Below, piece by piece: positions 8,021-29,081 of a stretch of DNA of 29,081 bases; the stretch's first letter is position 1; the number at the start of each line of letters is the position of its first letter. The translations under genes were made by a program, and so were the position numbers. Under the pieces are notes generated by a model that was not told where the DNA came from, ran no database searches, and worked only from the letters and a program-made list of their open reading frames with translations. The DNA lies in the IMG/VR virus record IMGVR_UViG_3300017613_002273, positions 1 to 29,081 of that record, one strand, 5' to 3'. This DNA is from a virus.

Positions 8021-8048
8021 GCTGTATGACTCCCTCCCTTTTTGAGAT

Positions 8049-8077
8049 AGTATACAATATGTATGGAATTATGTCAA
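8049..8077 (-). promoter_or_regulatory. sigma70-type promoter for the helicase operon
   Basis: On the minus strand, TTGACA (8077-8072) and TATACT (8054-8049) are separated by exactly 17 bp: a consensus -35 and a near-consensus -10. The predicted start of transcription is near 8042, about 20 nt upstream of the helicase ATG, with the Shine-Dalgarno in between. It is the clearest promoter in the window and marks the beginning of the unit from 8020 downwards. Confidence 0.8.
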
Positions 8078-8087
8078 GAATATGATA

Positions 8088-8127
8088 GATGGATGTTAAA
8101 AAAATTGCTATTTTAATAACATCCATC
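8088..8127. repeat. inverted repeat directly upstream of the helicase promoter
   Basis: GATGGATGTTA (8088-8098) is repeated in inverted orientation as TAACATCCATC (8117-8127), an 11-bp perfect stem with an 18-nt A+T-rich loop. It ends 10 bp upstream of the -35 box. It may act as an operator for a dimeric regulator, or as a terminator stem for transcripts from the lysis-like cassette, though no T-tract follows it on the minus strand. The function is not decided by sequence. Confidence 0.6.
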
Positions 8128-8216
8128 GTTTTGCTCGAATGTGTAAGAAAAAAATTAATAAGGCGTGGAAGGCATTATTATTTTTTTTCGGTCATTCTTA
8201 TTAGCCTTGCGCAATA

Positions 8217-8253
8217 AGATCAAATTACATTGAGGATAGAAGTAATTTGATCT
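8217..8253. repeat. hairpin A: 12-bp inverted repeat
   Basis: AGATCAAATTAC (8217-8228) pairs with GTAATTTGATCT (8242-8253), a perfect 12-bp stem with a 13-nt loop. No T-tract follows on either strand, so it is not a standard intrinsic terminator. It is one of a row of hairpins in the 306-bp stretch 8128-8433, where I find no gene. Confidence 0.7.
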
Positions 8254-8270
8254 GTTCAACTTGATAGTGA

Positions 8271-8306
8271 AGGACTTAAAATAGAAACGATTCTATTTTA
8301 AGTCCT
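8271..8306. repeat. hairpin B: 16-bp perfect inverted repeat
   Basis: AGGACTTAAAATAGAA (8271-8286) and TTCTATTTTAAGTCCT (8291-8306) form a perfect 16-bp stem around the loop ACGA. It is the most exact palindrome of the junction and lies midway between the two TTGCGCAA copies. No T-tract follows on either strand. Confidence 0.75.
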
Positions 8307-8334
8307 GAAATAAGTTCTCTGAGCTTGCGCAATA

Positions 8335-8378
8335 AGGCTAGCTTGATATTTCCCTTCATGGGAAATTCAAGCTAGCCT
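8335..8378. repeat. hairpin C: 19-bp inverted repeat with one bulge
   Basis: The left arm (8335-8354, beginning AGGCTAGCTTGA) and the right arm (8360-8378, ending TCAAGCTAGCCT) pair over 19 bp with one extra T in the left arm and a 5-nt loop (TTCAT). The left foot overlaps the second TTGCGCAATAAG copy. Its length is far more than chance would give in A+T-rich DNA. Confidence 0.75.
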
Positions 8379-8400
8379 GTTCTTCCCGAAGTTCTAATTG

Positions 8401-8468
8401 TTAAAAAATTCAGGACGCACCGAGGGAAAAATTTTAATTTTTCCGGAGAGCCGGGATGAATTTTTTAA
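8401..8468 (-). repeat. hairpin D: nested inverted repeats at the end of the 49-residue gene
   Basis: The outer arms TTAAAAAATTCA (8401-8412) and TGAATTTTTTAA (8457-8468) form 12 bp; inside, GGAAAAATT (8425-8433) pairs with AATTTTTCC (8436-8444). The stop codon of the small membrane protein (8434-8436) lies in the apex of the inner stem, and the outer stem overlaps its last codons. This could end or protect the mRNA of the lysis-like cassette. The inner stem followed by an A+T-rich outer stem is terminator-like, but there is no clean T-run. Confidence 0.6.
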
Positions 8469-8583
8469 TAATGGTCATAATGATATCGTCATACTTGTTC
8501 GGTGTTTCAGCAACGATTTTATCAGCAATAACAAGAATGATGAAGAACCACTGAGCACCATCTAAAATTACACTGAGTTCCAT
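8434..8583 (-). CDS. 49-residue single-TM protein, holin-like candidate
   Basis: This short gene has ATG at 8583, TAA at 8434 and AAAGGAAAA upstream, starting 11 nt after the stop of the DUF5675-type gene. It begins MELSVILDGAQWFFIILVIAD, a membrane helix at about residues 3-22, followed by KIVAETPNKYDDIIMTIIK and a basic tail. Small proteins with a hydrophobic helix and a DKIV..TP.K.DD motif recur in phage genomes next to lysis genes. The position after a DUF5675-type protein and a TM/coiled-coil protein suggests part of a lysis cassette, with a holin or holin-partner role as inference. Confidence 0.72.
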   Translation of the reverse strand: MELSVILDGAQWFFIILVIADKIVAETPNKYDDIIMTIIKKFIPALRKN

Positions 8584-8594
8584 ATTATTTTCCT

Positions 8595-12787: not shown

Positions 12788-15700
12788 TTATATTCCTGTT
12801 ATTACCCATGTAAAATCAGTTTCATAACACGCAACTCCGTCTTCATCAAATATATAGACATCAAAACTGGTGGGATTGGGAGCATCTGTAAAATCAACAA
12901 CCGCGAACATGGCAGTTGTTCCTATAGGTGTTACCTGAATGGATGATAAATCATAAAATGATTCAGTAAAAGTGATTGTCACGTTTGGTGTGGGAGAACT
13001 TGGTGTTGTTCCTGTACCGGATTCTGTTTTTGATACTTGTCCCAAACTTATACTGTGACTTAGAAAGTGTGTAAACCGTTTATTGTCCGATGATGTTAAT
13101 GCTATTCGTGTTCTTAAAAATTGGAATTCATTAAAATATTCATCAATGCTTGTTTCTTCATTCCATGCGTCATCACCGTATTGTTTTTCAGCAATGTAAT
13201 TTGTTATGCCTGCTCCGCTGTTATAATCTGTTTTTGATAATGTTGTCTGAACTCTTGCCAGATTAATTTCAACGCCTTCATCTACTGTTTCTTGATAATC
13301 TGCGGTAGAAGGAACAGGTTCCGGCATATATGTATAGGTATCATCAATAAAATCCTGCAATGTAGTATTGGAGTTATTTACAAAATGTTCTGTCCATGTT
13401 TCATCAGTATCTATTGGAGCAACCATTGTTCCATCAGGTAAGATAAAACAATTTGTCATAATATCTTCGGTACAGCTAAGTGTATCGAGATATATTGCAA
13501 GTGTGTCTGTATCTGGTGCTGTTACTTTTATATAAAATATTCGGTCTGCATCATCATTCGGGAGTTCTCCGGATAATTCAATCCATGAATCGGTTGTAGT
13601 TGTGGAATCAAGTTCTGTATCATTAGCATCGGAATCTCTATAATACAACTGGACATTGGTTATCCCCTGTCCGGATGGAATATATACTCTGGTACTGATA
13701 TTATAAACGTGTCCTTCTAAAAGCCCACAATCAGACCCGTCTGGAAAATACAATTCCATGGTGGTAGATGTGGCGTTACCAAGCATTTTTAATCCATACG
13801 TTCCGGCGTGTTTTTGTGTGGTACTTTGTGACAAAACACAATTTACAGCTGTCAAAGATATGCTGTTCATAGTAGGTACGTCAGATTCTATATCTCCGTT
13901 GGTTACCTTTTCATCACCGACTGTACCTTGATCAAAATCTAAACTCCAACTGTTTACAAGAACGAAATTTCCCGGATCATCAACTTCAACTGCTATTTCT
14001 GCGGGAACTCCGTAATTACCCCCAATGTCTTTTGCTGCGATCCGGTATGTGTAATTACTACCAACTGTTTCAAGGAGATTGCTGAATGTACTATCCACTG
14101 TGCCAATAACGGGATCACTCGCCCAACTGACTGTGGCAGAAGTCAGACATCCCCTGATTTCATATTCAGATATGGGGTATGTTCCTGCTGCTGGGGCATT
14201 CCAGTTAAGTAATACATTACTACTGATTACCGTAGAGTCTAAATTTTCCGGTGCAGATGCCTGTACAACTGTGAAGGGAGTGGTCGCCCATGATGAAGTT
14301 TGTCCGTAGACATCTCTTGACCTTACCTTGAAAGTATATGAACCGACTGCGGGTAATGATCCATAAAGAAAATTATTTCCGGCGTATCCTTGAGTAATAA
14401 CAGTATCATCAATATTTATGTCATACGAAAAAATATGAACATCACCGATGAGTGACCATGACAGCCGGATACCAATTTCCGTTTCACTGTACGTTGCTGC
14501 TAAATTATCCGGAGCTTCTACATCTTGTGGAATATTGGTATATTCAAGCTCTACATATTCAGTATCTCCGGGATCGTTTGTTGCTGATACAGTAAATTGA
14601 TATGTTGTACCGATGTCTAAACCGTCTGTTTTGCTCCAAAAATTTTCAGTAACAACGCCAGCAAAATTCCATTCAGCATGAGGATATGCTCTCCACCATA
14701 CATTATATCTGAGAGCTGTTCCTGTCCATGTAACCATGATACCGCTTGTACCAGCGTCTGTGGGTGACCAGAATTCATAACAAGCTAAATTGTATACCAG
14801 AGATTCTGTGCTTGGGGGAGTCCATTCTGTAATACTGATACTGTCATCGTATATGGCATCTATGTATTCGATTGCTTTTAATTTACGGCTAAGTTCATTA
14901 CCTCTCGTGATGTCTACTAACCTGAATTCTTTTGCAACACCCTGCACGGACCCGAAAGCAAATAATCCCGGAGCCACTGGAACGGTTGTCCAGTCATTTT
15001 CAATAGGAACTGGGGTTTCTGCCGGAAATGTCATGTCTTCCATTACAGTCGCTGTTGCCTGAGTTTCTAAAACATCTGTTGCTTGGTGACGGACAATTAT
15101 CTGATTTGAAACGCCATCTTTAAGTTCAATATCTTTATCGACTGTCACTTGTGCCGGAATAATAATTGAAAGATCATCAACGTAAACAGAGAGCGTGTCT
15201 ATATCTGAAGGGTGTGCCATGCGGATTTCAAAAGTTCTCTGTCCTGTTCCTGCTTCAAAGTGCATATAGCCGTATAGATTTACCCACGTATCTGTTTGGT
15301 CTGTTTCTGTCAATGTGTAAATATTACTGTCTGTATCCCTGTATCTTAAATAAACACCCGTAATTCCTTGACCGGATGGAATGTATACCCATGTAGATAA
15401 TTTATAAAGTTTTCCTTCGGTGAGTGATGGATCATCAAAATAGGCATATGCAGATGAAGCAGTTGCATTACCGAGTATTCTCATGGAATATGTTCCTGCG
15501 TGTGCTTGTGTGGCACTTTGACTGAGAGCGCAACTTGATCCCGTGAAACTTGTAGCTCCTAATGTGGGTATGGCAACTTCACAATCAGGATTTGTGAGAA
15601 GTTCTGTATCATCTTCTGCACATCCGTCAGCATATATCCGACTGGATATGCCCCACTGAGGGACATCATGAGAGAATAAGAACACATCCCCAACCTGACA

Positions 15701-18145
15701 GGCAATAGAATCAACGTCCGCTTGAAATTCAATTGTTCTTTCAATATATTTATTACAGTTTAACGCAAATTTTGCGTGTCGTAAAGCAAGTTGTCTGTCA
15801 ATACAGCCATATAAAACTGCACTTGTTTTTACCGGAATAATAGCTTCACCGGTATTAAATTCTTCTGTTCTGAGTTCAATTGTCTGACGGGTATAATCCA
15901 GCTCTTTATCAAAATATGTGACTTCTACACAATTTGCTCTGTCCTGCTGATTTAAAAAAGTTTCTTTAAAACTTTCTGAAATTATATTTCCCATTGAAAA
16001 CATTTGTACCGGTTCTCCAATACCTTCATAAATGCAGGAAAAATTTGACCCTTTTTGTACGACTTTTCCCCTGCCAACTTGTTCAATGGGTTCCATTGAT
16101 CTGGGTAACGTACCGACAGTATCTATGTACATATTACAGGAGAAGCCTTCATCATCACACCATTGTGCCCATGCTTTAAAATCTGCAAATATCATTTGTG
16201 TATAATCAACACCGGTTCCGTAAACATCATCTACAAGCATATCATAACAAATCCATGCGGGGTTTGTAGCGTCTTTTGTTGTCCATCCTTCAGTTGTTCC
16301 ATCTTCACGGCATGAAAAATTATCGATATAAATATATAATGTATCTGTGTCTGTTGCAGCAAATTCTACCCAGAGAACTCTCTGAACGTCATCATCGGTA
16401 AATGATCCGGTTAACGTAATCCATTCATCTTCGGTTGGGGTAGTGTCACTATCAAGTGTAGTGTCAGACCCGGCATTATTTTTTGATTTTAGATAAACAC
16501 CTGTGATTCCCTGTCCGGATGGAATGTATACTTGAACGGAAACATCATAGTCTTCCGTAGCTGTGAGTCCACAATCACTTCCATCAGCAAAATACACCCC
16601 TGCTTCTGTGGCTGTGGCATTGCCAAGAACTTTTAAACACCCACCATGAATGACATCATCATCAATTAAATGTGTGACAACAGAATCCAGTGGTGTCAAA
16701 TCTTCACTGTTCATTGTGGGTTCGTCTAATCTGCAGTTACCGTCAGTGACCATTTGCTTATCATCGGGATCATATACAGGAACAGTGTTTCGTGAAGCGA
16801 GTAAAGATAATCTCGGCATTCCGCCTGAAATTTGGTCTGTTGCCATTGCTTTTAAAGCGCACAAAGAAAGTCCGGGATATCCGAAATCGTCATAAATGAT
16901 TTCTTCTACATATTCCCATTGGCAATCTTTAAGACATCTAGTACTGATACTTGGTCGTTTATTATAACGGACTCTTATATCATATTTACTTGGTGTAAGA
17001 TCGTCTATTCTAAACATGATACGTTTTGGTTCAGTGACTTTATCTGTTATTTCAACAACTCCGCCGGAAAAATCATCTCCTGTCCAGTCTGTCCATGATT
17101 CTGAGGATGTTAGTTTGTATTGAATTCTGACGTCAACTGTAAAATTAGTTGGGTTTCCATCATTATTAAATCTGGTAAGTCCTCGAGGAAAAACGAGAGC
17201 AACAATTAATCCTTGGACAACATTTCCATTTGTTTGTGTTTGTGACCATTCTCCCGGATTATTTTCATCCCCGCCCTCTTTATCAATAGTCATTCCAACA
17301 GGTTTGATGGAATAAGTATCCATAAAATAACTTATCGTAGTTTGTCCAAGCGTACCATATCGGTATTCAACGCTTACTTCTTCGTAATTTTCTATTGGAT
17401 TATCATTAATTCTTAAATTTGATATTGTATCAACAGCATGATCCGCAACGAGCATCAGAATAGATAAATATTGTTTTCCCTCTCCTTCAGCTGTGATATG
17501 GCGGGCAATAAAATACGGCATGATTCTTACAGTACCGTATAAAACAGGAAGTGGCTTTCCTTCTCTGGCTGTATTGCCTCTTGCATCCCATGAATATGTA
17601 GCAGACTGATCTTCAACAGAACTACCGCCACCACCTGGAGGTAAGATCGGGTCATCTTTCCAGACAATACTTATAACCGTATTGATAAGTGTTGCAGCTG
17701 CGAGAACGTAAACTGCCCAATCATAGAGATAAGTAGCAGCTAGTACAATAGCCACAACATAAAGAACAATTTGTAGTATTAATTTCCAGATGTTTTTGCC
17801 ACCTTCACCACTGCCATGAGGTATAAGACAGATAGCAATATAATCTCCGGATTCAATACGTGTAGTCTCCTGACTTTCTTTTGAAATTCTATACCCGTTA
17901 ACGGCCGCTTCTAAATCCCACATTTTATTATTAATGACAGGAAAAATCTCATTAACGTACTCTTTTATGCCGACTCCGTTCTTTACAGGAACCATTTTAA
18001 CTGTCCGGTAATTTGCATCATGAAATTTAAAAGGATTTTTTACACCAACAATAAGAACATTACCGGGGTCTAATTCGTAAGGTGGCTGCTCAGCAATTTC
18101 AGGTATTAAAACAGTATGACGTTGTATGTTATCCTGTGTATTCAT
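12788..18145 (-). CDS. J: tail tip attachment (host specificity) protein J-like, with three CBM-like insertions
   Basis: This encodes 1785 residues. The N-terminus has the J-family layout: a MVPVKNG region, a hydrophobic hairpin at about 119-162, then GKPLPVLYGTVRIMPYFIAR (197-215) and ISNLRINDNPIENYEEV (241-257). NPAWICYDMLVDDVYGTG (628-645) and QVGDVFLFSHDVPQWG (817-832) are core J signatures. Fibronectin-III-like repeats lie at about 1118-1205, 1209-1294 and 1297-1390. Three related ~145-residue domains, each with VYIPSGQGIT, sit at about 467-614, 848-994 and 1413-1558; they resemble CBM4/9-type jelly rolls. The first interrupts the core before NPAW, the second interrupts a loop after ISSRIYADG, the third lies after the FN3 repeats. 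It shares a 17-bp overlap with the NlpC/P60 gene. It should sit at the tail tip and contact the host surface. Confidence 0.88.
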   Translation of the reverse strand: MNTQDNIQRHTVLIPEIAEQPPYELDPGNVLIVGVKNPFKFHDANYRTVKMVPVKNGVGIKEYVNEIFPVINNKMWDLEAAVNGYRISKESQETTRIESGDYIAICLIPHGSGEGGKNIWKLILQIVLYVVAIVLAATYLYDWAVYVLAAATLINTVISIVWKDDPILPPGGGGSSVEDQSATYSWDARGNTAREGKPLPVLYGTVRIMPYFIARHITAEGEGKQYLSILMLVADHAVDTISNLRINDNPIENYEEVSVEYRYGTLGQTTISYFMDTYSIKPVGMTIDKEGGDENNPGEWSQTQTNGNVVQGLIVALVFPRGLTRFNNDGNPTNFTVDVRIQYKLTSSESWTDWTGDDFSGGVVEITDKVTEPKRIMFRIDDLTPSKYDIRVRYNKRPSISTRCLKDCQWEYVEEIIYDDFGYPGLSLCALKAMATDQISGGMPRLSLLASRNTVPVYDPDDKQMVTDGNCRLDEPTMNSEDLTPLDSVVTHLIDDDVIHGGCLKVLGNATATEAGVYFADGSDCGLTATEDYDVSVQVYIPSGQGITGVYLKSKNNAGSDTTLDSDTTPTEDEWITLTGSFTDDDVQRVLWVEFAATDTDTLYIYIDNFSCREDGTTEGWTTKDATNPAWICYDMLVDDVYGTGVDYTQMIFADFKAWAQWCDDEGFSCNMYIDTVGTLPRSMEPIEQVGRGKVVQKGSNFSCIYEGIGEPVQMFSMGNIISESFKETFLNQQDRANCVEVTYFDKELDYTRQTIELRTEEFNTGEAIIPVKTSAVLYGCIDRQLALRHAKFALNCNKYIERTIEFQADVDSIACQVGDVFLFSHDVPQWGISSRIYADGCAEDDTELLTNPDCEVAIPTLGATSFTGSSCALSQSATQAHAGTYSMRILGNATASSAYAYFDDPSLTEGKLYKLSTWVYIPSGQGITGVYLRYRDTDSNIYTLTETDQTDTWVNLYGYMHFEAGTGQRTFEIRMAHPSDIDTLSVYVDDLSIIIPAQVTVDKDIELKDGVSNQIIVRHQATDVLETQATATVMEDMTFPAETPVPIENDWTTVPVAPGLFAFGSVQGVAKEFRLVDITRGNELSRKLKAIEYIDAIYDDSISITEWTPPSTESLVYNLACYEFWSPTDAGTSGIMVTWTGTALRYNVWWRAYPHAEWNFAGVVTENFWSKTDGLDIGTTYQFTVSATNDPGDTEYVELEYTNIPQDVEAPDNLAATYSETEIGIRLSWSLIGDVHIFSYDINIDDTVITQGYAGNNFLYGSLPAVGSYTFKVRSRDVYGQTSSWATTPFTVVQASAPENLDSTVISSNVLLNWNAPAAGTYPISEYEIRGCLTSATVSWASDPVIGTVDSTFSNLLETVGSNYTYRIAAKDIGGNYGVPAEIAVEVDDPGNFVLVNSWSLDFDQGTVGDEKVTNGDIESDVPTMNSISLTAVNCVLSQSTTQKHAGTYGLKMLGNATSTTMELYFPDGSDCGLLEGHVYNISTRVYIPSGQGITNVQLYYRDSDANDTELDSTTTTDSWIELSGELPNDDADRIFYIKVTAPDTDTLAIYLDTLSCTEDIMTNCFILPDGTMVAPIDTDETWTEHFVNNSNTTLQDFIDDTYTYMPEPVPSTADYQETVDEGVEINLARVQTTLSKTDYNSGAGITNYIAEKQYGDDAWNEETSIDEYFNEFQFLRTRIALTSSDNKRFTHFLSHSISLGQVSKTESGTGTTPSSPTPNVTITFTESFYDLSSIQVTPIGTTAMFAVVDFTDAPNPTSFDVYIFDEDGVACYETDFTWVITGI

Positions 18146-21908: not shown

Positions 21909-22262
21909 TTATGTTTTAGGTTTATCTTTTAATTTCACTTTAGGTTTTTCCTTTTTATTCACTAATTCAACGAAAACAGAATCTATGAATTGAATCCATT
22001 TAATATATGTGGCTCGTTCGTATCGAAGTATTTCATTTTCGTTTAAATAAGCTACAATTTCACTGTAAAAAATATGACCTATGCCGAATCCGGTATTCCT
22101 ACATGATATGAGAGCCCTAAAAGCTTCCCAATATGGTAGTAAATCGTGAAAAATTTCAGGCTCTTTATCAAGGATGGGCACTTTTTGCCCATCCAATTCA
22201 AGCTGTACGAACCAGTTATAATTGTCTTGGATAGACAGCCACCATTCCAAGACATCCCTTAG
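21909..22262 (-). CDS. tail assembly chaperone T domain, expressed by -1 frameshift from G
   Basis: In the -1 frame relative to the chaperone at 22654-22259, an open frame begins after the slippery site and runs CTAAGGGAT..., giving LRDVLEWWLSIQDNYNWFVQ and then 98 more residues to TAA at 21909. It has no ATG in its frame near its beginning and no Shine-Dalgarno, so it is best read as a fusion made by slippage (about 249 residues in total from 22654). The encoded part is helical and charged, ending KEKPKVKLKDKPKT. In lambda the G and G-T proteins both chaperone tape measure and tube assembly. Location directly upstream of the tape measure gene supports the call. Confidence 0.85.
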   Translation of the reverse strand, partial: LRDVLEWWLSIQDNYNWFVQLELDGQKVPILDKEPEIFHDLLPYWEAFRALISCRNTGFGIGHIFYSEIVAYLNENEILRYERATYIKWIQFIDSVFVELVNKKEKPKVKLKDKPKT

Positions 22263-22268
22263 TTTTTT
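22201..22268 (-). promoter_or_regulatory. programmed -1 frameshift signal (A AAA AAC plus stem-loop/pseudoknot)
   Basis: The G-frame codons GAA AAA AAC TAA carry the slippery heptamer A AAA AAC at 22268-22262, exactly at the end of G. Eight nt further, GUCUUGGA (22253-22246) pairs with UCCAAGAC (22231-22224), a perfect 8-bp stem with a 14-nt loop. GGCUGU in the loop (22240-22235) can also pair with ACAGCU (22206-22201), giving a possible pseudoknot. After -1 slippage the next codons are CTA AGG GAT and lead into the open T frame. The A AAA AAC heptamer is a well-known -1 site; the downstream spacing and stem are as expected. Confidence 0.88.
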
Positions 22269-22654
22269 TCCGATTCCTCATCTTGACTTTTCTTGAATAG
22301 ATTCAACGCATTGGATAGATCAAGAATCTGTTCCCTGAAATCCGGATATGCGTCAAATAATCTTTTTGCTTCCTGCGGTGAATATACGAGTTCTTTTTCA
22401 CCTTCATACATACCTTTCCAACCAAGAAGAATATGCTGAGAAGCAGCCTGAGATACACAACTCTCATAGATATCATCTGAAAGTGTGTTTCTCCTCATGG
22501 CTTGTCTGTGAGGTTTCAGAAGATTTGTTAATTTCTGTTGAAAATTCTTGTTTCCAAACCTTGCTATAAGAACTTCACATCCTTCACCGATGTCTTCCCA
22601 GACACCTTCGACTTCTTTAACCTTATCTGTTTCAAAAGTTTCTTTAATGTCCAT
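22259..22654 (-). CDS. tail assembly chaperone G
   Basis: This encodes 131 residues, TAA at 22259. The sequence fits the siphophage chaperone family: DIGEGCEVLIARFGNKNFQQ early, then KLTNLLKPHRQAMRR, ASQHILLGWKGMYEGEKE, YSPQEAKRLFDAYPDFREQI, and an acidic/Lys-rich C-terminus ending EESEKN. It is the usual gene between tail tube and tape measure. GGGGAG lies 9 nt upstream of the ATG and is a possible partner of a conserved sequence in the structured leader (22683-22759), so its translation may be regulated. A programmed -1 frameshift at its last codons yields the G-T fusion. Confidence 0.85.
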   Translation of the reverse strand: MDIKETFETDKVKEVEGVWEDIGEGCEVLIARFGNKNFQQKLTNLLKPHRQAMRRNTLSDDIYESCVSQAASQHILLGWKGMYEGEKELVYSPQEAKRLFDAYPDFREQILDLSNALNLFKKSQDEESEKN

Positions 22655-22663
22655 TGTATATAT

Positions 22664-22759
22664 CTCCCCGTTTTTAAGTAGAGCCCCGTATTATGCTTAG
22701 GGCAGGGCAACGAAAAATGATACGGGGCGAACCACTTTTCGTTGACAGCATCCCTGCCC
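22664..22759 (-). promoter_or_regulatory. pseudoknot-forming leader RNA with switch-like Shine-Dalgarno complement
   Basis: Between the tail tube gene and G, minus-strand RNA contains three interlocked pairings: a GGGCAGGG (22759-22752) with CCCUGCCC (22707-22700), b CAACGAAAA (22744-22736) with UUUUCGUUG (22716-22708), and c GCCCCGUAU (22728-22720, the b loop) with AUACGGGGC (22691-22683). The order a-b-c-b'-a'-c' is that of an H-type pseudoknot with all stems perfect (8, 9 and 9 bp). The c strand also complements ACGGGG (22671-22666) in the Shine-Dalgarno of G, so c could pair with either c' or the ribosome site. I read it as a candidate regulatory leader for the chaperone or as a transcript-stability element. 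Confidence 0.75.
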
Positions 22760-22767
22760 AGGATTAA

Positions 22768-23928
22768 TTATAATGACGCTGGTATTCTGTCTATCTGAAT
22801 CATGCAATCCGTTGTAGAATCTCTCATGGCTCTCCATGTAATGTTTTCCACAACATCTGCGTCCTGCCCTTCAGCGTTTGGCTGATCAGTTTCAAACTTA
22901 ATGTTCGGAAGTGTGAAAACATATATATTTCCGGCAGTATCTGTAAGCCTGAAAGTCAGTGAAGTCGCTGTGTTCGCAAGATACTTATCATACAGACTGT
23001 CATCAGCGAACATGACGTTAAGCGTTCCGGTAATATCACACTTGCCAACTCCGATATCCGCTGCTCCGAGTGTGCCGACAGCAGGGATACCTCTAACATT
23101 ATTTTCTAATGATATGGATACTTCCTGAATCATTAATGAAAGAGCTGCACCGCCTTCCTCGATGGTTCCCACATTGGACAGTGCATCAAATATTTCCGTA
23201 GTTGTTGCATCGGTGGGTTCGCCCGTGCCTATTGTTGCTTGAGCAAGAGCTGCGCTTTTTCCAGTAAACTCGAATGATCCGGTAACGGCAGCGTTTGCAG
23301 CAACAGTAAGTTCAAGAGAGCTTACAACCATTCCGAGGAACCCAAAGAATTCTGTAATGTCTGCGTGCTTTCTTTCAACGGAATAGCTGATCTCAGTCGT
23401 TCCATTTCTAAGATATGCGCCGTTTATAAGTCCGTTTGTCGGAGCGGATTCATCAACAAGTGTGGAATCTACGGTTATGACTAAAGCACTGACGGCAGTT
23501 ACTTTCTTAAGACCGTTGTTTTCAGAATTGCTCCATCCACTGAACATGAGCCATTGACCAACAACGATACCGTCTACCACAAAACCTTCAATCGCGGCTG
23601 AAGTGTACGTACTCCCTGACTGAGCAACCGCAACATCACTTGTATCCAGATCGATTGTACTTGACCAATTGTTCCATAAAGCGCCTTCGAATAAATCATC
23701 GAATGTGCCGTATGAAAGTTCAATATTAATCCCGCCGTTACATTCCGCACCGGTTTGAACGAGATCTGTTACCTGACGATCATCTCTGATTTCACCTGAA
23801 ACCATATGATCAATTACAAACCCAAGGGACTCGCCTGTGATCCTCAATTCCTGAAGCGCACTTGCAGGCGTTGTCCCCCACGTAACTTCTTCTAAAATAT
23901 AAATCCCTGTTCTATTGGTATCTGACAT
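22768..23928 (-). CDS. major tail tube protein
   Basis: This encodes 386 residues. It matches the tail tube family in its N-terminus: YILEEVTWGTTPASALQELR at about 10-29, ITGESLGFVIDHMVSGEIRD and DRQVTDLVQTGAECNGGINI, followed by ELSYGTFDDLFEGALW. These EST.GTTP.SA, SxEIR.DRQVTDL and G.DD..E.AL elements are typical. AGGAGGCG precedes the ATG at 23928. It lies upstream of the two chaperones and the tape measure, the standard siphophage position. At 386 residues it is longer than minimal tube proteins; the middle insert (about 115-180) looks like an Ig-like domain (inference). Confidence 0.85.
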   Translation of the reverse strand: MSDTNRTGIYILEEVTWGTTPASALQELRITGESLGFVIDHMVSGEIRDDRQVTDLVQTGAECNGGINIELSYGTFDDLFEGALWNNWSSTIDLDTSDVAVAQSGSTYTSAAIEGFVVDGIVVGQWLMFSGWSNSENNGLKKVTAVSALVITVDSTLVDESAPTNGLINGAYLRNGTTEISYSVERKHADITEFFGFLGMVVSSLELTVAANAAVTGSFEFTGKSAALAQATIGTGEPTDATTTEIFDALSNVGTIEEGGAALSLMIQEVSISLENNVRGIPAVGTLGAADIGVGKCDITGTLNVMFADDSLYDKYLANTATSLTFRLTDTAGNIYVFTLPNIKFETDQPNAEGQDADVVENITWRAMRDSTTDCMIQIDRIPASL

Positions 23929-25616: not shown

Positions 25617-28600
25617 TTAAGCTGCCTGTACAAATGTTAATGACGGTTTGAAATACATGATATCTGCTGACACCGCCCATCCAAGTATTTGTTGTTGGTC
25701 TCCGGTTCCTGTTGGTTTTGTTTGTGTTAGTGTATTTCCAGTCGTCCCTGTCGTACTAAGCCAGATCAATCCGCTTTCACCGGGGCCGACCGTCCAGTTC
25801 CAAGTATCATCCCGAACATAGCCTTCAATTAACCATTCTCCGCTTGAGGCAGCGGATATTGCTTCAAGAGCCATGTACAATCCCGGACAGGTTGTGGGAC
25901 CGTCTGCATCTCCGAACTCCAAATCCCCGTCCGCTGCCATGTAGCAGACATCTCCAACTGCGACAGCTCCTGCATTGCCGTTTGTGTGAACTGCCTTTTT
26001 ACCGGACGCTGTATGATCTGTATCCGGTGACGAATCCAGTAAAATTTCATAGTCCGTTAAATCCAGATCTCCGGCAAGCTGCGGAGAACTATCATCAATA
26101 AGGTCTGTTAAATACCCGAGCTGAGTTTTCATTTCACCATCGGATCGTGATTCCAATCCATTTGCTGTGAACCTTGCTATTTCTGTGTTTGTTGCATCAG
26201 CACTGTCTACTGTTACTAAATGATTGTCTGCTATACCATGTTGTATTTGATGAGCATGATCCGCTCTTGCTAATGAATGCGAAGAACCTTCGGCAGATGC
26301 TTGGACTGATGCTAATTCAGACGGTGCTGCCGTGTCTAATGCGTCACCACCATCTTCGGGATCGTGTGAATCTTTATGTGCTTGAGGAGCATTATCACCG
26401 GTTACGTCAGCTCCTGATGTCACACTTATATCTGACAATAACTCAGCGACCGATCTTCCTTCCAAACCACTTGCAGTAAGTCTTGCGTAATCTGTTGCTT
26501 CAGCATCAGTATCGTCCATAGTTACTAAATGATTATCAGCAATACTATGTTGGATCTGATGTTGATGATCTGCCCGTGCCAGAGAGTGTGAAGTTCCAAT
26601 AGCTGAAGCCTGAACAAGCGCCAACTCCGATGGCGCTGCCGTATCAAGCGCATCACCTCCGTCTTCCGGATCATGGCTGTCTTTATGAGCTTGCGGAGCA
26701 TTATCTCCCGTAACGTCTGCTCCGCTTGTTACGCTTATATCTGATAACAATTCCGCAATTGATCTTCCTTCTAATCCACTGGCTGTGAATTTTGCAAAGT
26801 CACCGCTTTCGGCATCAGCGTCATCTATTGTCATTATAGCATTGTCGGCAATACTGTGTTGAATCCTATGAGCATGATCCGCTCTTGAAAAAGAATGAGA
26901 AGTACCGATTGCAGCAGCCTGAATTCCATCAAGATTGCCAGCAATTGCCGTATCTAACGGATCACTTCCATTTTCCGGATCATGATCATCTTTATGTGCT
27001 CCACCACTACCCGGATCTGCCCATGTCCCGTCATCTCTTAAAAAGTTTCCAACATCCGTGCCTTTTGGAACGAGTCCGTGGAGAGTCGTAGAAAAATCAA
27101 GGTCTGTATTATCTTCTGGTACTTGAAGATTATCCAATCTAATTTGATCTCCACCACCGGATTGATGGGAAGCGTTATGAGCTTGTGGAGCGTTGCTACC
27201 GGTTACATCAGCTCCGGCATCAATTCCATCAAGCTTGCCTCCGTCTGTACTCACACTTCTTCCATCTACATTTCCCGATACAACTATATTTTCAACATCG
27301 AGATCTCCATCTACATTTATATCCCCTGTATCGGATATGGTTGGAGCGTTGCTTGTGTAATCCTGCAGTAATTTTCCTGTTACTCCACTGAATCTGGCTA
27401 TTGCATTATCAATAGAAGCACCGGGACCAACAACATCTCCGCTTCCTCCCGGAGTATCCCATACCAATTCACCCGGATCATCATCCCATTTTAAATACTG
27501 ATCTGAACCCGGATCAGCGGGAAAGACAGTATCCCCACCGCTTACCGCATGGCTGGCTTCATGAGCTTGAGGAGCATTGCTACCAGTAACATCTGCACCG
27601 TCATCCACATTAAGATCTCCTCTGACTTCAGAATAGCTCCGGCCTTCCAAACCGCTGGCTGTAAATCTTGCATAGTCCAAAGTTGCTGCGTCTGTATCGT
27701 CTACTTCTAACAAATTATCATCAGCAATACCAATCGCCTGCTCTGCAAGAACATCTGTTCCAATAACAAGTCCAAGGTCAGAACGAACTTCTGAGTAATC
27801 CCTGCCTTCCAAACCACTTGCAGTAAATCTGGCAAAATCGTTATCCGCAGCATCAGCGTCATCTACTTTTAAGTTATTACCATTTGCTATTCCTGCTGTT
27901 AATCCAAGCTCTGATAACAATGTTGCGTCATTAATTCCATCCAACCCTCCGCCCATAGTCCATCGTGGCCACTCATCTTCAAAAATAGTACTACCTTTAT
28001 TAATAACTACTAAATGACCGTCACCGGGTCCAAGTTGAATTTGGTGTTGATGATCTGCTCTTGCGAAGCTATGTGAACTTCCTTCTCCGGACGCTTGAAC
28101 TCCAGCAAGTTCAGCAGGTGCAGCAGTATCCAATGAGTCACCACCGTCTTCTGGATCATGTGAATCTTTATGAGCTTGAGGAGCGTTACTACCTGTTACA
28201 TCAGCTCCGGCATCGATTCCATCGAGCTTGCTTCCATCGACTGAAACATCTCTACCGTCTATTGTCATTGTATGAGCATCAGTACTATGCACAGTGTTTT
28301 CAACATTATCTAAAGACAAATCGCTTTTTACTTCTGAATAATCCCTGCCTTCCAAACCATTTTCAGTAAATTTAGCGTAATCATTATCGGCAGCATCAGC
28401 ATCATCCACTTCCAAAAGATTGTCATCCGCAATACCAATTACTTGCTCTGCAAGAATGTCTGTTCCGATAACAAGCCCAAGGTCAGTACGAACTTCTGAG
28501 TAATCTCTACCTTCCAAACCGTTTGCAGTAAATCTGGCAAAATCATTATCCGCAGCATCTGCATCATCTACTTCTAATAGATTATTATCGGCAATACCAA

Positions 28601-29081
28601 TTGTCTGTTCTGCCAACACATCCGTTCCAATTTCTAAGCTTAAATCAGCCCTTACTTCAGCGTAACTCCTTCCCTCAATGGTATCTTCATCTGTGAACCG
28701 TGCAAAATCAAGAGCCACGGGAGTTCCGCTTGTGTCTACAGTTCCGCTTCCGGCAGGAGCAGCCCATGCCCCATCATCTCTTAGAAAGTTACCAACATCT
28801 GTTCCTTTAGGAACGAGCCCATGCAAAGATGTTGAAAAATCTAAATCCGTATTATCATCTGGAATTCCAAGATCATCCAGCTTGATTTCATCGCCCCCAC
28901 TGGCTTCATGAGAAGTACTATGAGCCTGCGGAGCGTTATCACCGGTAACATCTGCTCCGGTCGCAATACCAGTCAATTTCGACTGCTCTGCTGCGGTAAA
29001 AGGAGTTGCCAGTGTAATATTAACTTCTGTATCGGGACTTTCAGATACGTCAAAATGATCACCGTCAAAATCAAAAGTTTC
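25617..29081 (-). CDS. large repeat-rich fibre-like protein, 5' end outside the window
   Basis: The frame is open from TAA at 25617 to the window edge (1154 residues visible). It contains repeated fibre modules: GADVTG(D/S)NAPQAH units followed by HD(P)E or S.GGD elements, DNLLEVDDADAADND with FAR(F)TA(N/S)GLEGRDYSE, VP(K)GTDVGNFLRDDG(A/T)W, and SHSFARADHQHQIQ-type HxH turns. The C-terminal ~140 residues (SGKKAVHTNGNAGAVAVGDV, then LIWLSTTGTTGNTLTQTKPT and ADIMYFKPSLTFVQ) form a domain seen at the ends of other phage fibres. Its position upstream of the tail tube gene, between the expected head genes and tail genes, makes a head fibre or head-tail decoration as likely as a tail fibre. The HxH turns could bind a metal in a trimer (inference). 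Confidence 0.8.
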   Translation of the reverse strand, partial: ETFDFDGDHFDVSESPDTEVNITLATPFTAAEQSKLTGIATGADVTGDNAPQAHSTSHEASGGDEIKLDDLGIPDDNTDLDFSTSLHGLVPKGTDVGNFLRDDGAWAAPAGSGTVDTSGTPVALDFARFTDEDTIEGRSYAEVRADLSLEIGTDVLAEQTIGIADNNLLEVDDADAADNDFARFTANGLEGRDYSEVRTDLGLVIGTDILAEQVIGIADDNLLEVDDADAADNDYAKFTENGLEGRDYSEVKSDLSLDNVENTVHSTDAHTMTIDGRDVSVDGSKLDGIDAGADVTGSNAPQAHKDSHDPEDGGDSLDTAAPAELAGVQASGEGSSHSFARADHQHQIQLGPGDGHLVVINKGSTIFEDEWPRWTMGGGLDGINDATLLSELGLTAGIANGNNLKVDDADAADNDFARFTASGLEGRDYSEVRSDLGLVIGTDVLAEQAIGIADDNLLEVDDTDAATLDYARFTASGLEGRSYSEVRGDLNVDDGADVTGSNAPQAHEASHAVSGGDTVFPADPGSDQYLKWDDDPGELVWDTPGGSGDVVGPGASIDNAIARFSGVTGKLLQDYTSNAPTISDTGDINVDGDLDVENIVVSGNVDGRSVSTDGGKLDGIDAGADVTGSNAPQAHNASHQSGGGDQIRLDNLQVPEDNTDLDFSTTLHGLVPKGTDVGNFLRDDGTWADPGSGGAHKDDHDPENGSDPLDTAIAGNLDGIQAAAIGTSHSFSRADHAHRIQHSIADNAIMTIDDADAESGDFAKFTASGLEGRSIAELLSDISVTSGADVTGDNAPQAHKDSHDPEDGGDALDTAAPSELALVQASAIGTSHSLARADHQHQIQHSIADNHLVTMDDTDAEATDYARLTASGLEGRSVAELLSDISVTSGADVTGDNAPQAHKDSHDPEDGGDALDTAAPSELASVQASAEGSSHSLARADHAHQIQHGIADNHLVTVDSADATNTEIARFTANGLESRSDGEMKTQLGYLTDLIDDSSPQLAGDLDLTDYEILLDSSPDTDHTASGKKAVHTNGNAGAVAVGDVCYMAADGDLEFGDADGPTTCPGLYMALEAISAASSGEWLIEGYVRDDTWNWTVGPGESGLIWLSTTGTTGNTLTQTKPTGTGDQQQILGWAVSADIMYFKPSLTFVQAA

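Follow-up and report, generated by a model that had tools for sequence, protein, structure and literature searches.

The gap between the genes for the major tail tube protein and the G tail-assembly chaperone holds an RNA element (22759 to 22664, minus strand) of three interlocked stems, in which a loop strand has two competing complements, one of them in the Shine-Dalgarno (SD) region of G. The stems covary in related phages, and the position of the element between these two genes is fixed. The design is kept in relatives while its letters change, which points to an undescribed switch setting the amount of chaperone. Judged from its sequence, the element probably serves as a cis-acting translational gate of the G/GT chaperones in the polycistronic tail mRNA.

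Architecture and gene context of the element

The tail genes of the window (the whole analysed stretch of 29,081 nt) are encoded by the minus strand of the virus record, and all coordinates given here refer to that strand. The 5' neighbour of the gap is the gene for the major tail tube protein (22768..23928; domain match to PF18906), whose UAA stop occupies 22770-22768. The gene for the G chaperone (22259..22654; profile matches to phrog_313 and phrog_8233) begins with an AUG at 22654 and ends with GAA AAA AAC TAA (22259-22270), which contains the -1 frameshift site A_AAA_AAC. Frameshifting at this heptamer is predicted to join G to a TTG-started ORF in the -1 frame (21909..22250; domain match to PF23812, Phage_TAC_18), the T part, with a lambda-like GT fusion as the product. 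The related loci L002 and L065 share the heptamer. Located 5' of the tail tube gene is a gene for a repeat-module protein of >1100 aa (25617-28976), with the repeated modules DYSEVRSDLGL.. and TGADVTGDNAPQAHKDSHD...

Stem a begins 8 nt past the tail-tube stop with its 5' arm GGGCAGGG (22752..22759). A 7-nt 5'-side bulge, AUGCUGU (22745..22751), spaces it from the 5' arm of stem b, CAACGAAAA (22736..22744). The loop strand c, GCCCCGUAU (22720..22728), is separated from b by GUGGUUC and by CAU from the 3' arm of stem b (b', UUUUCGUUG, 22708..22716). The 3' arm of stem a (a', CCCUGCCC, 22700..22707) abuts b' without a gap, as it does in L002, L065, and L088. An 8-nt linker, UAAGCAUA, leads to c' (AUACGGGGC, 22683..22691), the first complement of c and its decoy or pseudoknot partner. 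The second complement, the SD region of G (ACGGGGAG, 22664..22671), follows after an 11-nt linker, UCUACUUAAAA, and stands 9 nt ahead of the AUG. The initial annotation had described perfect, interlocked stems a, b, and c of 8, 9, and 9 bp in a 113-nt gap; the lengths, order, coordinates, and gap size were all reproduced. It had also stated that c pairs both with c' and with ACGGGG at the SD of G. Both complements are present exactly: CCCCGU in c is a 6-bp complement of ACGGGG, a motif shared by c' and the SD region. On the minus strand of the window there are four copies each of ACGGGG and CCCCGU, two and one of them, respectively, in the gap, and none of the other genes in the window is preceded by ACGGGG. 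An extra pairing, AUGCU:AGCAU, is missing from L002 and was dropped. An intrinsic terminator was also rejected: the sequences directly 3' of a' and c' (UAAGCAUA and UCUACUUAAAA, respectively) are not U-tracts, and a minus-strand scan found no site here.

A 574-nt gap elsewhere in the window (8021-8594) contains another structured RNA that is conserved, with a homolog in L063 (~15550-16082). Its hairpin GGCUAGCUUGA/UCAAGCUAGCC, with the inner part CCC-AUGAA-GGG, corresponds to GGACAGGAUU/AAUCCUGUCC and CCG-AUGAA-CGG in L063; the stem is rewritten yet paired, and the AUGAA loop is identical. The structure is followed by a terminator-like hairpin and by a promoter-like site (TTGACA/TATACT).

Two arrangements in related phages

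The arrangement of the window, with the decoy between hairpin and SD (type A), is known from six gaps only, of about five lineages. L002 shares 79% identity with the window in the tail tube protein, 38% in G, and ~62-66% in DNA over collinear parts. The 5' arm of stem a, the AUGCUGU bulge, and the loop letters are unchanged in L002, and the element starts 9 nt past the tail-tube stop. The 5' arm of stem b reads CAACAAAAA and is compensated by a U in b', a double change from G-C to A-U; at the end of c:c' there is a one-sided change from G-C to G-U. Despite the low identity of G, L002 keeps c, the core of c', and both ACGGGG copies, including the SD region, which is also kept in L065. The G of L065 is 44% identical to that of the window, and its stems a (UGGCAGC/GCUGCCA) and b (CCAGGG/CCCUGG) are replaced yet paired around the retained CCCCGU, ACGGGG, and ACGGGGAGG of loop, decoy, and SD. 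L088, which shares its gap with L087 and L089, has a stem a of 12 bp (CUCCGCACUGGC/GCCAGUGCGGAG), a stem b of GAUAG/CUAUC, and a loop CGCUCC; GGAGCG occurs twice, the second copy being the SD. The bulge between a and b is 10 nt long in L065 and occupied by a small hairpin in L088. The b'/a' 3' arms are continuous and the 5' arms split by an insertion in the window, L002, L065, and L088. In ctIqW946, the loop GCGAGU is followed by ACUCGC and then by CUCGC-AGGA (the three strands being GCGAG/CUCGC/CUCGC), and in L068 the type A layout recurs, a single bulge interrupting the SD pairing.

This comparison supports the initial interpretation in part: the three stems are real and conserved, since the gaps of relatives keep paired arms despite changes of letters. 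The compensatory changes sought in homologous gaps were found in stem b of L002 and, for L065 and L088, in the rewritten stems a and b. In L088 and ctIqW946, the letters of c, c', and the SD copy shift together. Within the lineage of the window, L002, and L065, c is invariant, so its pairings gain no covariation there. MAFFT alignment of these three gaps misplaces stem a, and covariation was therefore tabulated by structure. A blastn search with the window gap against phages and plasmids gave no useful match. Conserved-letter DNA patterns hit only L002 and unrelated sites in viral contigs and had no match in genome contigs; no relatives of G were found on plasmids.

The second arrangement, with the decoy upstream of the hairpin (type B), occupies the same gap in 18 sequences, including that of the laboratory phage phiCbK. 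These come from phages of Ruegeria, Phaeobacter, Rhodobacter, Erythrobacter, Citromicrobium, Caulobacter, Brevundimonas, and Pseudanabaena, and from one metagenomic contig. The design comprises a strong hairpin with the loop (G/A)UCGGG, a complement CCCGA(C/U) upstream, and another adjoining the SD of G. Each stem position displays 2-5 pair types. The last pairing position (upstream-loop-downstream) is C-G-C in ten members, U-A-U in phiCbK, CcrRogue, and Gurke, C-G-U (wobble) in DSS3P8 and V10, C-G-A in RXM and Bajun, and the mismatched C-A-A in L086. The Brevundimonas phages Gurke and Domovoi differ from each other in all three strands at exactly this position. When loop letters were permuted among the type B phages, both Watson-Crick counts were matched in 0.18% of cases (fraction 0.0018). 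The energies of pairing of the loop strand with the upstream complement (u:c) and with the SD-side copy (c:d) are similar in most members; in RXM, Bajun, and L086, the pairing of c with the SD-side copy is limited to 5-6 bp. This copy abuts the SD and does not cover it. As revealed by blastn, the type B gap occurs in groups of 31 and 6 records around phiCbK and DSS3_MAL1, respectively; among the records listed, no features were annotated at the gap, with one exception.

In several type B loci (L107, L108, L109, L111, L113, L114, and L115), a self-complementary segment lies 3' of the upstream complement and 5' of the main hairpin. Its sequence varies but remains palindromic (CUCAGCGCUGAG, CUCACCGGUGAG, CUCACGCGUGAG; GCCAUGGC or GCUGCAGC in roseophages). 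In the type B loci L108, L111, L113, L115, L119, and L120, a TTGACA-like promoter (CTTGACATTTCCC...TAGGGT in phiCbK) lies in a 140-180-nt gap 5' of the tail tube gene, which suggests that this gene is expressed separately and at a high level.

Other relatives have other features at this gap. It contains a terminator-like hairpin in Pseudomonas phage 73, Kmi2C, FtMidnight, Bhz59, and Vibrio 264E42.1, and is almost absent in Xp15, Siara, L031, L069, and L085; the distant tail-tube relatives A1432, L031, and L032 have little or no gap. In L070, L072, and L073, a terminator-like hairpin is followed by a promoter-like TTGCCA-16-TATACT, as if G were transcribed separately. Many phages may thus place a step-down of expression at the boundary between tail tube and G, and the RNA described here would be one translational way of doing so.

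The proposed gate and alternative explanations

The strong hairpin of stems a and b would display strand c in its loop. Pairing of c with c' would form an H-type pseudoknot that leaves the SD of G free and G translatable, and pairing of c with ACGGGG of the SD would mask the ribosome site. In type B, masking would come from c:d next to the SD, and the block would be steric because the SD-side copy abuts the SD and does not cover it. Since c' would be made first during transcription (in type B, u:c would form first) and the pairings are close in energy, the RNA could partition between the two states. Such a partition would keep the output of G/GT far lower than that of the tail tube protein, which is abundant. 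The balance could be shifted by a bound protein (G/GT or tail tube protein) or by ribosomes that terminate at the tail-tube stop, 8-9 nt before stem a begins. We infer that the pairing alternates in vivo, that the masked state represses G, and that the ratio is set in this way.

According to rough helix energies, which exclude the costs of pseudoknot loops, c:c' and c:SD differ by 0.4-3.5 kcal/mol in the six type A gaps. The window prefers c:c' by 3.5 kcal/mol (duplex energy, loop costs excluded) and could therefore sit permanently in the open state. Its c:c' pairing may also be strained, because the 8-nt linker must span the 17 bp of a and b unless the bulge kinks.

Chance or base composition, with GC-rich hairpins and coincidental complements, is a very improbable source of the design. 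Crossing helices are indeed not rare: two helices of at least 8 bp each within 150 nt were found 110 times in 1.74 Mb of simulated sequence. Nested folding of the window gap is unremarkable (z -1.9), because it cannot show a pseudoknot. What is rare by chance is a loop strand with two complements, one of them at the SD. This was assessed by a design score, which required a hairpin of at least 6 bp and, in its loop, a k-mer complementary to two or more sites beyond the hairpin, one of them close to the start codon. This score was devised once the window had been seen and related phages are not independent, so the figures serve as guides: as a rough count, it was reached in 2 of 1500 dinucleotide shuffles of the window gap and, for the same number of shuffles, in 29 for L002, 11 for L065, 5 for L088, and 41 for ctIqW946 (k=5), and values of at least 6 were obtained for 11 of 31 tail-tube/G gaps (35%; all gaps at least 60 nt) versus 6 of 124 other gaps (5%) from the same loci collection. 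One of the 11 high scorers, Colossus, scored via a k-mer other than the one described here, and the gaps of L067, L070, L071, L074, L076, and L079 did not display this design above chance level. The 5% of other gaps that reach the same score speak for coincidence; against it stand the compensatory changes in several lineages, the variety of pair types at each stem position of the 18 type B members, and the three-strand covariation.

An operator, in which a constitutive c:c' pseudoknot is bound by a phage or host protein and blocks translation of G, with the likeness of the SD to c' being secondary, is unlikely as well. It would agree with the strong hairpin, with the 7-nt bulge and loop letters shared by the window and L002, with c:c' being the stronger pairing in the window, and with the existence of such operators (PMC535899; PMC10931766). 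However, neither L065 nor L088 retains the bulge sequence, and in L088, ctIqW946, and type B, changes in c are matched by changes in the SD-side copy, which a single pairing would not need. Somewhat less likely still is a 3'-end element that serves to protect or process the abundant tail-tube mRNA, its position before G being incidental. The start of the element 8-9 nt past the tail-tube stop in the window and L002 would fit this role, as would the strong terminator-like hairpins of Pseudomonas phage 73, Kmi2C, FtMidnight, Vibrio 264E42.1, and Bhz59, but no U-tract follows the stems in the window, L002, L065, or L088, and both the SD complementarity and the three-way covariation are left unexplained. 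Stimulation of readthrough or frameshifting at the tail-tube stop has been largely refuted and is the least credible of these explanations. A pseudoknot 8 nt past a stop has the usual spacing for this function, and frame 0 of the window is open past the stop through the gap. Neither property is conserved: with a spacing of 9 nt, L002 has a different frame past the stop and meets a UAA directly after a', and the spacing is 13 nt in L088 and 36 nt in ctIqW946.

Relation to known systems and significance

Neither the window nor 18 related loci had a match in Rfam 15 at the gathering score, and relaxed thresholds gave only weak snoRNA/miRNA matches, which were judged to be due to chance. The open-access literature yielded no description of a two-complement loop at a tail chaperone gene, and tail genes are not mentioned in the main text of a survey of structured-RNA candidates (PMC2864571). 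The gene 32 translational operator of phages T4 and RB69 is an mRNA pseudoknot 5' of the ribosome site; in T4 it spans ~28 nt and nucleates cooperative binding of gp32 on UUAAA repeats (PMC535899). The window element is likewise an H-type pseudoknot 5' of a ribosome site in a phage mRNA, but it serves another gene and has much larger stems, and the T4 pseudoknot itself does not compete for the SD. The surroundings of the G start in the window contain no run of UUAAA repeats, with one UUAAA before the SD.

Pseudoknot operators are also present in Escherichia coli mRNAs for the ribosomal proteins L20, S4 (alpha operon), and S15 (rpsO), and those for S4 and S15 entrap the bound 30S subunit together with the ribosomal protein (PMC10931766). 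These two share with the window element a pseudoknot at the ribosome site and alternative mRNA conformations; in window-type elements, in contrast, SD complementarity itself persists through sequence change. Nor does the element fit the ribosomal-protein operators (L20, S4, S15), which control their own operons, as the gene it would control is that of a phage tail chaperone. In the L20 operator of infC-rpmI-rplT, the loop of an upstream hairpin pairs with the downstream start region, and ribosome and repressor compete. The window element has the same layout in a polycistronic mRNA, but its loop has two complements, one being a decoy, and the downstream gene is that of a phage tail chaperone. 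In SD-sequestering riboswitches, alternative pairings exclude each other, and one of them masks the SD. Two such pairings, one covering the SD, are also found here, as seen in sequence and covariation; unlike riboswitches, the element has no visible conserved ligand core, and its conserved letters are mainly in the pairing strands.

The balance between very abundant tail tube protein and scarcer chaperones is explained mainly for G:GT, whose ratio is fixed by frameshifting in phage lambda. The same proteins would be under stoichiometric control in the window, which also bears A_AAA_AAC at the end of G, but the element would set total G/GT relative to tail tube protein. It would thereby add a layer of control at the tail-tube/chaperone boundary itself, and this is directly testable, because type B occurs in phiCbK, which grows on the laboratory model Caulobacter crescentus. 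The three-strand covariation offers a clean natural case of one strand matching two competing partners. Tentatively, these elements may represent a widespread, undescribed class of phage RNA switches at the tail-tube/chaperone boundary, with at least two arrangements and a hairpin loop with two competing complements, one of them at the SD of G, possibly sensing a tail protein or assembly. If so, the synthesis of chaperones may be coupled to tail building through such sensing.
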